From Candidatus Parcubacteria bacterium (lineage in GTDB: Bacteria > Patescibacteriota > Patescibacteriia > UBA1558 > GWA2-36-10): DNA of 46,759 nucleotides. Position numbers and translations under genes: made by a program. Below the pieces are notes generated by a model. It was not told the DNA's origin. It made no database searches and worked only from the letters and a program-made list of their open reading frames with translations. The stretch's first letter is position 1; each line of letters opens with the position of its first letter. The stretch spans positions 1 to 46,759 of the forward strand of contig JABJNO010000007.1 in NCBI GenBank assembly GCA_018664825.1. The letters are read 5' to 3'. This document shows positions 12,353 through 15,079 of this stretch, in pieces.

Positions 12353-12761
12353 CTTTTTTTCTAAATTGTAAGAGTAAAAGCCAAACTACGGCTATTGATA
12401 TATAAATATCACTCAGATTAAATACCGAAAAAAATCGAACATTGATAAAATCTATAACTCCTCCATAATATATTCTATCAAGCACATTACTGACAGCTCC
12501 TATTATCAAAAGTCCTAGTGGCCAAACAAAAAAATCTTTTTTTCTCAACGATTGTAACCACAAGTATATCAAAACTATAAAAATAATCACAAGTAAGGGG
12601 TACAAAACCATCCCACTCATCGGAATAGAAAAGGCTATGTCCCTATTTATATGCAAATCAATAAAACCATCCCAATAGGATGGTTTATATTTTATTATAA
12701 AAAATTTAGATAGCCTATCTACAATAAATAATATTATAAGATTGGCAAAATATTTTGTCAT
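12336..12761 (-). CDS. lspA: Lipoprotein signal peptidase (signal peptidase II)
   Basis: A 141-residue protein with four membrane segments and both catalytic aspartates of the family: one in NVLDRIYYGGVIDFI, the second in FNLSDIYI. The upstream NRDIAFSIP replaces the usual NxGAAF block. LspA cuts the signal peptide of lipidated prolipoproteins in the membrane; the window encodes at least three lipobox proteins (27074, 30472, 45590). The start overlaps the end of the traR-like gene by one base, so the two form an operon. It is slightly shorter than the usual 150-170 residues. Confidence 0.93.
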   Translation of the reverse strand: MTKYFANLIILFIVDRLSKFFIIKYKPSYWDGFIDLHINRDIAFSIPMSGMVLYPLLVIIFIVLIYLWLQSLRKKDFFVWPLGLLIIGAVSNVLDRIYYGGVIDFINVRFFSVFNLSDIYISIAVVWLLLLQFRKKENPVE

Positions 12762-13126
12762 TATAAAGATTTTTCTTTACAGGCCATACAGGCTGTAGCA
12801 GAAGGAAAGGCTTCTAGCCTCTCTGGTTTGATGGGACCATCACACTTTTCACAAAGCCCGTAAGTTCCTTCATCAATTTTCTTCAAGCCTTTGTTGACGT
12901 TATACATAGATAACTCCAAGGTTTTCTCCAAAGATAAATTTTTCTCAAACATCGCTACCTCAGCTGCATTTTCGTCTTCTTTATCACCCAAATCTATAAA
13001 TTTGGCATCATAATCATTGTCAGCTACTTGATCGGTAGAAATTGCAAGTTCTTTTTCTAATTCAACTTTTCTTTCTAACAAGTCTTTTTTTCTTTCTTCT
13101 ATAAATTTTTTGTCCAGTTTCTTCAT
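12761..13126 (-). CDS. TraR/DksA-type zinc-finger protein
   Basis: A 121-residue protein: an N-terminal coiled coil of about 80 residues and a C-terminal C4 zinc finger with the pairs CEKC and CMAC, as in DksA/TraR proteins that enter the RNA polymerase secondary channel. The finger is followed only by KEKSL. The ATG at 13126 was chosen as the start because the coiled coil begins there (MKKLDKKFIEERK). A TTG-initiated extension of 12 codons is possible but has no supporting Shine-Dalgarno. It precedes lspA with a one-base overlap, an arrangement common in this kind of genome. Confidence 0.85.
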   Translation of the reverse strand: MKKLDKKFIEERKKDLLERKVELEKELAISTDQVADNDYDAKFIDLGDKEDENAAEVAMFEKNLSLEKTLELSMYNVNKGLKKIDEGTYGLCEKCDGPIKPERLEAFPSATACMACKEKSL

Positions 13127-13196
13127 ATGTTTTAGCTTAATAATACCCCTATATAGTAGCAAATAAGTTTATTAAAATCAAGAATCTAAGCAAATT

Positions 13197-13252
13197 AAAA
13201 AGGCGCATGGTCTATCCCCCTAATTTAATATTATGTGAGTGACGTATGCGCC
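13197..13252 (-). terminator. Terminator-like long-loop hairpin in the traR upstream region
   Basis: GGCGCAT (13202-13208) pairs with ATGCGCC (13246-13252); on the minus strand the stem is followed by TTTTT (13201-13197). The loop is long (37 nt), so its strength is uncertain. It could end a minus-strand transcript starting at 13583-13611. Confidence 0.4.
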
Positions 13253-13311
13253 CTTAGTGTCGATAAAAATACTTTTATTCAATTTGTTTTGTACTTTTTG
13301 TAAGCTAAAAT

Positions 13312-13320
13312 TGATATAAT
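13312..13320 (+). promoter_or_regulatory. Perfect extended -10 promoter (TGATATAAT)
   Basis: TGn immediately before the consensus TATAAT. No good -35 was found at the right distance, which is normal for extended -10 promoters. The same 9-mer stands at 28024-28032 before the micropeptide gene. It points into the folded RNA region. Confidence 0.65.
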
Positions 13321-13326
13321 AAGATA

Positions 13327-13551
13327 TTATTCGTACCGACATCGGTGCTCGCCCTGACTCAGAGCAATTTAATCTATCTTACCAATCTATGGAATTGGTC
13401 TCCATGAAGCTTTTTGTTTCGTGAGGACAATCCTTTTTGTGTTTTTTGTTTTTGTTTTTGAGGGGAACTGTCAGGTAGTTCCTTAAAGATTTTTGTAGTC
13501 CAGTAAGATAGAGGGAGTTGGGCACTAAATATTCTAATGCGCAATTCCCTA
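13327..13551 (+). ncRNA. Candidate structured non-coding RNA, about 225 nt
   Basis: Several mutually compatible helices lie in 225 nt with no coding frame: ACCG/CGGT (13334-13345), TGCTC/GAGCA (about 13346-13366), a 10-bp perfect closing helix (13373-13382 with 13503-13512), inside it a long imperfect hairpin (13391-13433) and GGAACT/AGTTCC (about 13464-13482), then an 8-bp hairpin with extension (13513-13550). A T-rich linker (about 13434-13460) joins the inner stems. At most imperfect positions the pair is G-U on the plus strand but A-C on the minus strand, which favours the plus strand, as does the extended -10 promoter. I could not match it to tmRNA, RNase P, 6S or SRP RNA: their signature sequences are absent. 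Confidence 0.5.
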
Positions 13552-13582
13552 TGTATTTAAAAGATCCTTTATCAACATACTA

Positions 13583-13611
13583 AGTATATCATATAATAGG
13601 CCTAAAGTCAA
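13583..13611 (-). promoter_or_regulatory. Minus-strand sigma70-type promoter
   Basis: TTGACT (13606-13611), 17-nt spacer, TATACT (13583-13588). It could drive an antisense transcript through the structured region and on to the terminator-like hairpin at 13197-13252, or to traR-lspA. Confidence 0.55.
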
Positions 13612-13702
13612 TCATGATTATTGGCTAACATTAGGTTAATAAACAATATATTAAAAAATAATTTGACAAAATTAGCAAAAATGATTGAAAACAATCAACA
13701 AG

Positions 13703-13774
13703 TTATCCACAGATTCAATAAATTTTTATAGTTTATCCACAAGCCTACTCGCAAATTAAGATACCTGTGGATAC
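13703..13774. promoter_or_regulatory. Cluster of DnaA-box-like 9-mers beside an AT-rich tract
   Basis: Two exact TTATCCACA boxes stand at 13703-13711 and 13733-13741, in the same orientation and 30 bp apart, that is about three helical turns. A third, with one mismatch and inverted (TGTGGATAC), is at 13766-13774, inside the end of the next gene. The tract to the left (about 13613-13700) is strongly AT-rich with A-tracts. Exact matches to the DnaA box and the phasing suggest a DnaA-binding region; whether it is an origin cannot be told from here. Confidence 0.5.
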
Positions 13775-15079
13775 ATGATTAAAGTAACCAAACATATTCA
13801 ATTGTTTGATGTTTTTAGAGTTTAAATAAGCCCTGAGGTCCCCCTCTGGAAGCTCATTGGGGTCTAGAATCATAAAATCATTTATATAGTACTCCTTGCC
13901 CTGACTACAGTCAGCTAAAGAATCACCCAGCAACGTACCTTGATCAATGATTTCTTTTATCATATCCTCATCATTGGACAAATAGTAGACAAGATCAACC
14001 TGCCAACCATGCAATCCATCGATCTGCCAGTAGCTTTGTGCATGATATTGGTGTTGTGTTACTGCTGGAGTACCACTTTCTACATACTCTATGTACAAAG
14101 TACCATCGGGTAGTAGCTTTTTATGTTCACTCACCTCAAATGTCTTGGCAAATTGATTAGCAATGGGTTGCCAATCTTCTTTTTTGGCTATCAACCAAGC
14201 ATCTTCCCTCTGCCAGACAATACTCTCCTCCAAAAAATAGGTCTCTAGGTCATCTAGGCTTAAGTTGTGGTAAGGTAGGCTATCAAAAATTGCTAAAAGT
14301 ATGTTTTGACTAATAAATTTTCTAAAATTTAATGTTGAATCTTGGCTAGTACCAATTGCGAAGTCAAAATCCTTGGGTTGCCGAGCATATGTATACAAAT
14401 CTGACTGTTCGACAAACTTATTTGTATCATCAAAGTATTGAGTTTGATAAATATTTATGTTGTTATCAGATAAATTTATAAAAACCCTCGGATCTGATAC
14501 TGTGGTGGATAAAGAGTCTGTTAATTTTTGCAAAAACTCTGGCGTATGACGTAAATCAACATAAATGTTTATACCCTTAGCAATATAATTGACGTTGAAA
14601 CGCCCCACAACCACCTTGGTTGGATTGTTGGCTATACTTTCTAACTCAGATATCAATAAAATGTCTTTGCTTAGACGATTATAATACAAATCAGGATGAT
14701 TAGCTCGTAGGCTTTCCAATAGTCCATCTGTATAGTCAGATAATTTTATCAAATAACTACTCTCCTCAACATTTTCTACCTTAAACCAGATAAGACCCTC
14801 CAATTCAACTATCTGTTCTGCCAAAATTTCATTTATTCTTTCTGCATGAGACATCGGAACACTATAATCAAACAATCCGTACTTGTCTTGACTAAGATTG
14901 TCTATATCATTGAACTCATAATAAAAAACGGTGTTTTCTGGAAGAAAATCTCGAGCATAAACCTCTGGCTTGACTGACCAGAGTAAACTTATTGCAAAAA
15001 CAATACCAACTACTGCTAGGATTAGCAGTAGTTCAATGGTATTTTTTCTATTTTTTGAAGTAAAATCAATAAACTTCAC
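13745..15079 (-). CDS. Membrane-anchored extracytoplasmic protein, unknown
   Basis: A 444-residue protein with one N-terminal membrane helix (about 16-35) and a large soluble domain facing outside. It starts at a GTG, 10 nt after the pnp stop codon, so it is probably the last gene of the rpsO-pnp transcript. The beginning of the domain (YARDFLPENTVFYYEF) is reminiscent of DUF3352-type proteins, which also start with a membrane helix and a short 'lP.dt..y' strand, but the match is weak and I do not assign it. A C-terminal Cys is not near a partner. The 3' end overlaps the last DnaA-box-like 9-mer. Confidence 0.75.
   Translation of the reverse strand: MKFIDFTSKNRKNTIELLLILAVVGIVFAISLLWSVKPEVYARDFLPENTVFYYEFNDIDNLSQDKYGLFDYSVPMSHAERINEILAEQIVELEGLIWFKVENVEESSYLIKLSDYTDGLLESLRANHPDLYYNRLSKDILLISELESIANNPTKVVVGRFNVNYIAKGINIYVDLRHTPEFLQKLTDSLSTTVSDPRVFINLSDNNINIYQTQYFDDTNKFVEQSDLYTYARQPKDFDFAIGTSQDSTLNFRKFISQNILLAIFDSLPYHNLSLDDLETYFLEESIVWQREDAWLIAKKEDWQPIANQFAKTFEVSEHKKLLPDGTLYIEYVESGTPAVTQHQYHAQSYWQIDGLHGWQVDLVYYLSNDEDMIKEIIDQGTLLGDSLADCSQGKEYYINDFMILDPNELPEGDLRAYLNSKNIKQLNMFGYFNHVSTGILICE

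Follow-up and report, generated by a model that had tools for sequence, protein, structure and literature searches.

The 46,759-nucleotide stretch of Candidatus Parcubacteria DNA analysed here (the window; contig JABJNO010000007.1, positions 1 to 46,759) carries on its minus strand a gene of ~380 nt whose product is very probably a stand-alone, structured, single-copy non-coding RNA (ncRNA) and the founding example of an undescribed family of Patescibacteria. The features by which such an RNA is recognised from comparative sequence data, namely a promoter and terminator of its own, a covarying structure and no conserved open reading frame (ORF), were all found.

Extent of the gene and its elements

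An initial sequence-only reading of this DNA had placed an RNA of ~225 nt on the plus strand, at 13327-13551. The conserved unit instead runs on the minus strand from ~13576 to ~13197, and measures 350-448 nt from promoter to terminator among homologs. Its elements in the window are as follows.

13583..13611, minus strand: sigma-70 promoter of the RNA (−35 TTGACT at 13611-13606, 17-nt spacer, extended −10 TGATATACT with its hexamer at 13588-13583)
13197..13576, minus strand: whole putative ncRNA gene, ~380 nt; the start at ~13576 and the 3′ end in a U run at ~13197 are both predicted
13513..13549, minus strand: 5′ hairpin H1, GGGAAUUG.GCAUUA/UAGUGC.CAACUCCC, with double changes in 12/14 pairs
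13503..13512, minus strand: 5′ strand of the long-range helix P1, UCUAUCUUAC, with compensatory changes in 8/10 pairs and 92% of cells paired
13464..13482, minus strand: hairpin HP2, in which all stem pairs covary; its loop CCUGAC (13475-13470) takes part in a kissing pair with the loop of HP5
13434..13459, minus strand: A-rich linker AAAAACAAAAACAAAAAACACAAAAA; no other nearly invariant stretch is as long as its core, AAAACAAAAAYAAAA, which is also present in other classes
13398..13428, minus strand: hairpin P3, GUCCUC...GGAGAC; a long insert in several homologs repeats an H1-like hairpin
13373..13382, minus strand: 3′ strand of P1, GUAAGAUAGA, the partner of 13503..13512, with the same covariation as its basis
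13347..13365, minus strand: hairpin HP5, GCUC...GAGC; its loop GUCAGG (13358-13353) is the kissing partner of the HP2 loop
13258..13341, minus strand: 3′ domain, closed by UGUCGGUA (13341-13334) and UAUCGACA (13265-13258)
13197..13253, minus strand: terminator-like hairpin, GGGCGCAUAC...AUGCGCC followed by UUUUU; a GC hairpin with a U run occurs in nearly all homologs

A published description of this RNA was not found, an earlier account outside Rfam being possible, chiefly in subscription papers. Searches of the literature likewise found no lineage-specific ncRNAs for Patescibacteria, few of which seem to have been described.

Promoter and probable transcribed strand

A near-consensus sigma-70 promoter (TTGAC/T-17-TGNTATA[C/A]T) is located on the minus strand directly upstream of the conserved region in 26/26 aligned order-level homologs. 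It scores 11-13 of a possible 13, compared with a mean of ~8-9 for shuffled sequences and 6.5-9.5 for the opposite strand, and the gene is probably transcribed constitutively. A CTAATATTAGC-like motif (~13630-13650 in the window, minus side) was also observed ~20-30 bases 5′ of the −35 element in most homologs, and is possibly an UP element or an operator.

The helices themselves point to the same strand. Among the 26 homologs they contain 115-120 G-U pairs when read from the minus strand versus 59-60 for a would-be plus-strand RNA, with the same outcome for an alignment on either strand, and the long-range 10-bp helix alone gives 16-20 versus 2-3. Most of the opposing, plus-type wobble cells come from two columns, a conserved A-C mismatch in H1 and another in P3. 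Folding energy cannot decide the strand, since both strands fold beyond 200 dinucleotide shuffles (z −4.8 for plus and −4.0 for minus; 0/200 shuffles as stable on either strand). It is the conserved minus-strand promoter together with the wobble bias that indicates an RNA read from the minus strand, from ~13576 to 13197.

The plus-strand alternative, a 225-nt RNA starting from TGATATAAT at 13312, draws on an extended −10 element that does exist in the window (13312-13320) and on the plus-strand fold being slightly the more extreme relative to shuffles. This element is particular to the window, however, occurring in 0/25 homologs; no T-run terminator was found near 13551; the wobble bias points to the minus strand, and the conserved minus-strand promoter fires straight through the region, all of which leaves a plus-strand transcript scarcely credible. 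The RNA has an extended −10 promoter of its own, as had been proposed, although on the other strand. Some plus-strand G-U pairs, as pointed out in the initial reading, do occur in the window but are not general among homologs. It is also highly improbable that the locus is a short protein-coding gene or that the RNA has a dual function, with the A-rich linker read as Lys/Thr/Asn codons. The window does contain an open frame of 56 codons, but the longest sense ORFs of the homologs range from 8 to 66 codons, are scattered over differing positions and share no common peptide, and the sequence variation reflects compensatory base pairing and is not codon-like.

Covarying core and kissing loops

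The predicted core comprises the 5′ hairpin H1 and P1, which encloses HP2, the A-rich linker and P3, with HP5 lying outside. P1 is the 10-bp closing helix that had been noticed from the window's letters (13373-13382/13503-13512), and it is conserved; several further hairpins are likewise present in the window. Across 26 homologs, 89.6% of cells in the core structure are paired and double changes occur in 30/38 pairs; the covariation score of 0.598 compares with 0.210 for shuffled alignments (0/500 shuffles reach the observed value), and sliding the partners reduces pairing to 38-50%. The comparison of homologs from beside traR-lspA that had been suggested for this locus therefore bears out a structured RNA. 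The model for this core alignment was fitted to the structure, and MAFFT-only alignments give the same picture: in one unfitted to the structure, with the kissing pair and HP5 included, 90.4% of cells are paired and 32/40 pairs show double changes, again with 0/500 shuffles reaching the observed score. In a consensus fold built from 20 homologs, the 3′ domain is closed by a helix of 9 bp that shows double changes, and its last element is the terminator hairpin.

The loop of HP2, inside P1, is complementary to that of HP5, outside it, in more than ten compensatory versions across lineages. These include CCUGAC/GUCAGG, CUUGAC/GUCAAG, UCUGAC/GUCAGA, CCUAAC/GUUAGG and CCGAC/GUCGG as well as ACUGAC/GUCAGU, UUCGAC/GUCGAA, GCUAAC/GUUAGC, GCUCAC/GUGAGC and others. 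Copies from other classes, whose loops were delimited by hand, have UCUAACC/GGUUAGA, UCCAACC/GGUUGGA, UCUAAUC/GAUUAGA and CGAUUAAGUCG/CGACUUAAUUG. The test was confined to the loops, complementarity of the broad left and right regions being confounded by the P1 helix. It is descriptive, as cross-pairings between relatives are also often complementary because many relatives share one loop version, and it covers members other than L072, L073, L075 and L078-L081, whose divergence makes them align too poorly for the kissing loops to be judged.

Eight homologs (L030, L031, L033, L034, L036 and L038-L040) possess a second H1-like hairpin (GAAUUGnG...UAGU..CAnCUC) within the long P3 insert, as if the H1 element had been duplicated.

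Distribution among Patescibacteria

A DNA search matched five genomes of the same family, four of them with copies at 70-72% identity and one through a split match. A covariance model (R1) based on the window plus five relatives identified exactly one strong copy in each of 21/21 genomes of this family, Candidatus Komeilibacteria (E 1e-10 to 1e-41), and further copies in three other families of the order. With a model made from 26 homologs (R2), copies were found in 78/240 genomes of the class (about a third, under strict filters), nearly always one per genome. A third model (R3) was searched in other classes of the phylum and returned weak but plausible copies in a few of them; these copies share the A-rich motif and come with a sigma-70 promoter of their own. 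A motif pattern derived from these other-class copies occurred in 14/380 genomes, compared with 0 for the reversed control.

By the named records that contain the neighbouring TraR gene, the window falls within Komeilibacteria, and the other hits are from Magasanikbacteria, Uhrbacteria, Falkowbacteria, Buchananbacteria, Kerfeldbacteria and Veblenbacteria. Together these groups form the class called ABY1. R3 matched in 60/80 of these loci and the match lies upstream of traR in 59, the exception (L123) being weak and on the opposite strand. Two other matches, L056 and L059, were judged false, as they are without the promoter and without traR context.

At ~13 mostly Magasanikbacteria loci to which the model is blind (L123, L139, L140, L145, L147, L149, L158, L159, L169, L171, L174, L178 and L179), a promoter, 350-450 nt of non-coding sequence and a terminator-like end still precede traR. 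The motifs ACTTCTT and GCGGTTG are common to these stretches. They may represent the same RNA in diverged form, and finding a similar unit at the same place gives the impression, in Magasanikbacteria, of fast divergence rather than loss.

Gene neighbourhood

Most members of the family precede dksA/traR-lspA (Pfam PF01258 and PF01252). In the window, two features downstream of the RNA belong to this neighbourhood.

13153..13181, minus strand: separate traR promoter, TTGATT-17-TACTAT, with extended TG
12761..13126, minus strand: DksA/TraR-type zinc-finger gene, outside the RNA (Pfam PF01258, 4.4e-09)

A traR promoter of this kind (mostly TTGATT-17, extended TG) follows the terminator in most homologs. 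Other contexts, with promoter and terminator kept, were seen for L061, L063, L076, L078 and L081. Neighbours in the deviating lineages are PNPase/rnhB, a cca/pcnB-like gene and a nearby tRNA, the rnhB- and cca-like labels having been read from the sequence and not from a domain search. Upstream in the window (13745-15079, minus strand), a protein of 444 aa with no Pfam match is encoded; it keeps its place beside the RNA throughout the family, though not beyond it.

Searches for known RNA families

No Rfam 15 family matched the window at its gathering score, in agreement with the initial impression that the RNA fits no recognisable class. With relaxed thresholds the best sub-threshold match reached 20.8 bits versus the 70 needed; tracrRNA, sau-5971 and CrcZ appeared among such matches at chance level, far under their gathering scores, and were rejected. 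The same search on 40 homolog loci (20 class-level and 20 class/phylum-level) gave only tRNAs elsewhere in the loci, and raiA/ModT (RF03072) had no gathering-level match in the window or in the 40 homolog loci. A diverged tmRNA or RNase P RNA at this locus was discarded, as the genome's tmRNA (RF00023, G000:C10:5872-6256) and RNase P RNA (RF00010, C3:96572-96917) are both on other contigs; ARAGORN also found no tmRNA in the window.

6S RNA (RF00013) was detected in 0/28 genomes (that of the window and 27 relatives). Among Komeilibacteria-lineage genomes, SRP RNA was detected in 0/19 with RF00169 and 0/19 with RF01854, and the Ffh M domain (PF02978) in 0/13 versus 14/14 controls; on these searches the lineage appears to be without a signal recognition particle. 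The GUCAGG loop of HP5 had prompted SRP RNA as a candidate, which was set aside as the loop covaries (GUCAAG, GUUAGG, GUCGG and others) and the lineage is without Ffh.

Improbable alternatives: cis leader or diverged housekeeping RNA

Adjacency to traR-lspA in most lineages leaves room for a role in cis. The RNA would then be an attenuator- or riboswitch-like leader of dksA/traR-lspA that senses a signal and controls read-through of the terminator before traR. All 26 order-level homologs and the 59 named TraR loci have the RNA 5′ of traR and in the same orientation, which would suit such a leader, as would the terminator placed between the RNA and traR. In most homologs, however, traR has the separate promoter after that terminator, the five members in other contexts are not upstream of traR and yet keep promoter and terminator, and an RNA of 350-450 nt that combines a kissing core with a distinct 3′ domain would make a large leader. 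A context that is conserved but not fixed, with promoter and terminator kept, favours a stand-alone trans-acting RNA, and the leader is judged improbable.

Similarly doubtful, and given little credence, is a strongly diverged housekeeping RNA, above all 6S RNA, or SRP RNA. Neither was found by its model in any of the genomes searched (28/28 and 19/19 negative), and a 6S-like job would suit a stable, promoter-driven, single-copy RNA beside the gene of an RNA-polymerase-binding protein. Against this, none of the 40 homolog loci gave a gathering-level Rfam match to such an RNA and the window has matches at chance level only; kissing hairpins on either side of a long-range helix are a topology unlike the 6S rod with its central bubble; and SRP RNA is disfavoured by the missing helix-8 motif and by a lineage that lacks the Ffh M domain. 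The comparative evidence taken together indicates that the minus-strand RNA is most likely a trans-acting ncRNA of a new family.

Proposed function and significance

The kissing contact between HP2 and HP5 would lock the core of the RNA in a compact form, in which the A-rich strand may be either docked or left open as a surface for protein binding. The RNA would act in trans as a ribonucleoprotein scaffold with a general, growth-related role. In style this resembles raiA/ModT, which is structured, widely conserved and has a role tied to growth phase (PMC11706538). Such a scaffold role is put forward tentatively, as one possibility that falls short of even chances. The covarying loops of ROOL and GOLLD turned out to be intermolecular (PMC12286853), and by analogy the HP2-HP5 contact could be so too. 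Linkage to traR, together with the lack of a detectable 6S RNA, makes a role in transcription control thinkable. More speculative, and on balance unlikely, is a wider proposal in which the RNA dates from the root of Patescibacteria, or close to it, and is a core, abundant ribonucleoprotein component of the cell. Through its kissing pair it may form a dimer or higher RNA assembly, and in a lineage with neither 6S RNA nor any of the SRP detectable it may have assumed global control of transcription or translation.

Most Patescibacteria are uncultured, and their genomes are small and reduced. A heavily constrained, single-copy RNA of 350-450 nt that is kept in reduced genomes likely matters to the cell. 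It would represent a new family of RNAs, one whose loop-loop contact has covariation behind it, and is a definite object for metatranscriptomic and structural study and for the question of what replaces 6S RNA and SRP.

Comparison with known RNAs

The newness claimed is at the level of the family; the general type, a large structured bacterial ncRNA with no assigned function, is already known from OLE, ROOL and raiA/ModT. Like the present RNA, raiA/ModT is a structured bacterial ncRNA that stands alone, has tertiary pairing of the pseudoknot type and is without a settled mechanism (PMC11706538). It is known from Bacillota and Actinomycetota, however, where it lies beside other genes, and an A-rich linker such as that found here is not among the features described in the accessible part of that source (PMC11706538). 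ROOL, GOLLD and OLE are comparable in being ornate RNAs whose structure relies on kissing loops and A-minor contacts (PMC12286853), but they are much larger (ROOL env-120 is 659 nt) and show no sequence or model match to the present RNA; ROOL, moreover, occurs in prophages and phages (PMC12286853). 6S RNA (RF00013) is a comparable promoter-driven regulatory class whose architecture differs and whose model does not match, although the present RNA could fill the vacancy left where 6S is undetected. The tmRNA (RF00023) and RNase P RNA (RF00010), essential, single-copy RNAs with pseudoknots, are similar to it in size, but each has a gene of its own elsewhere in the window's genome.
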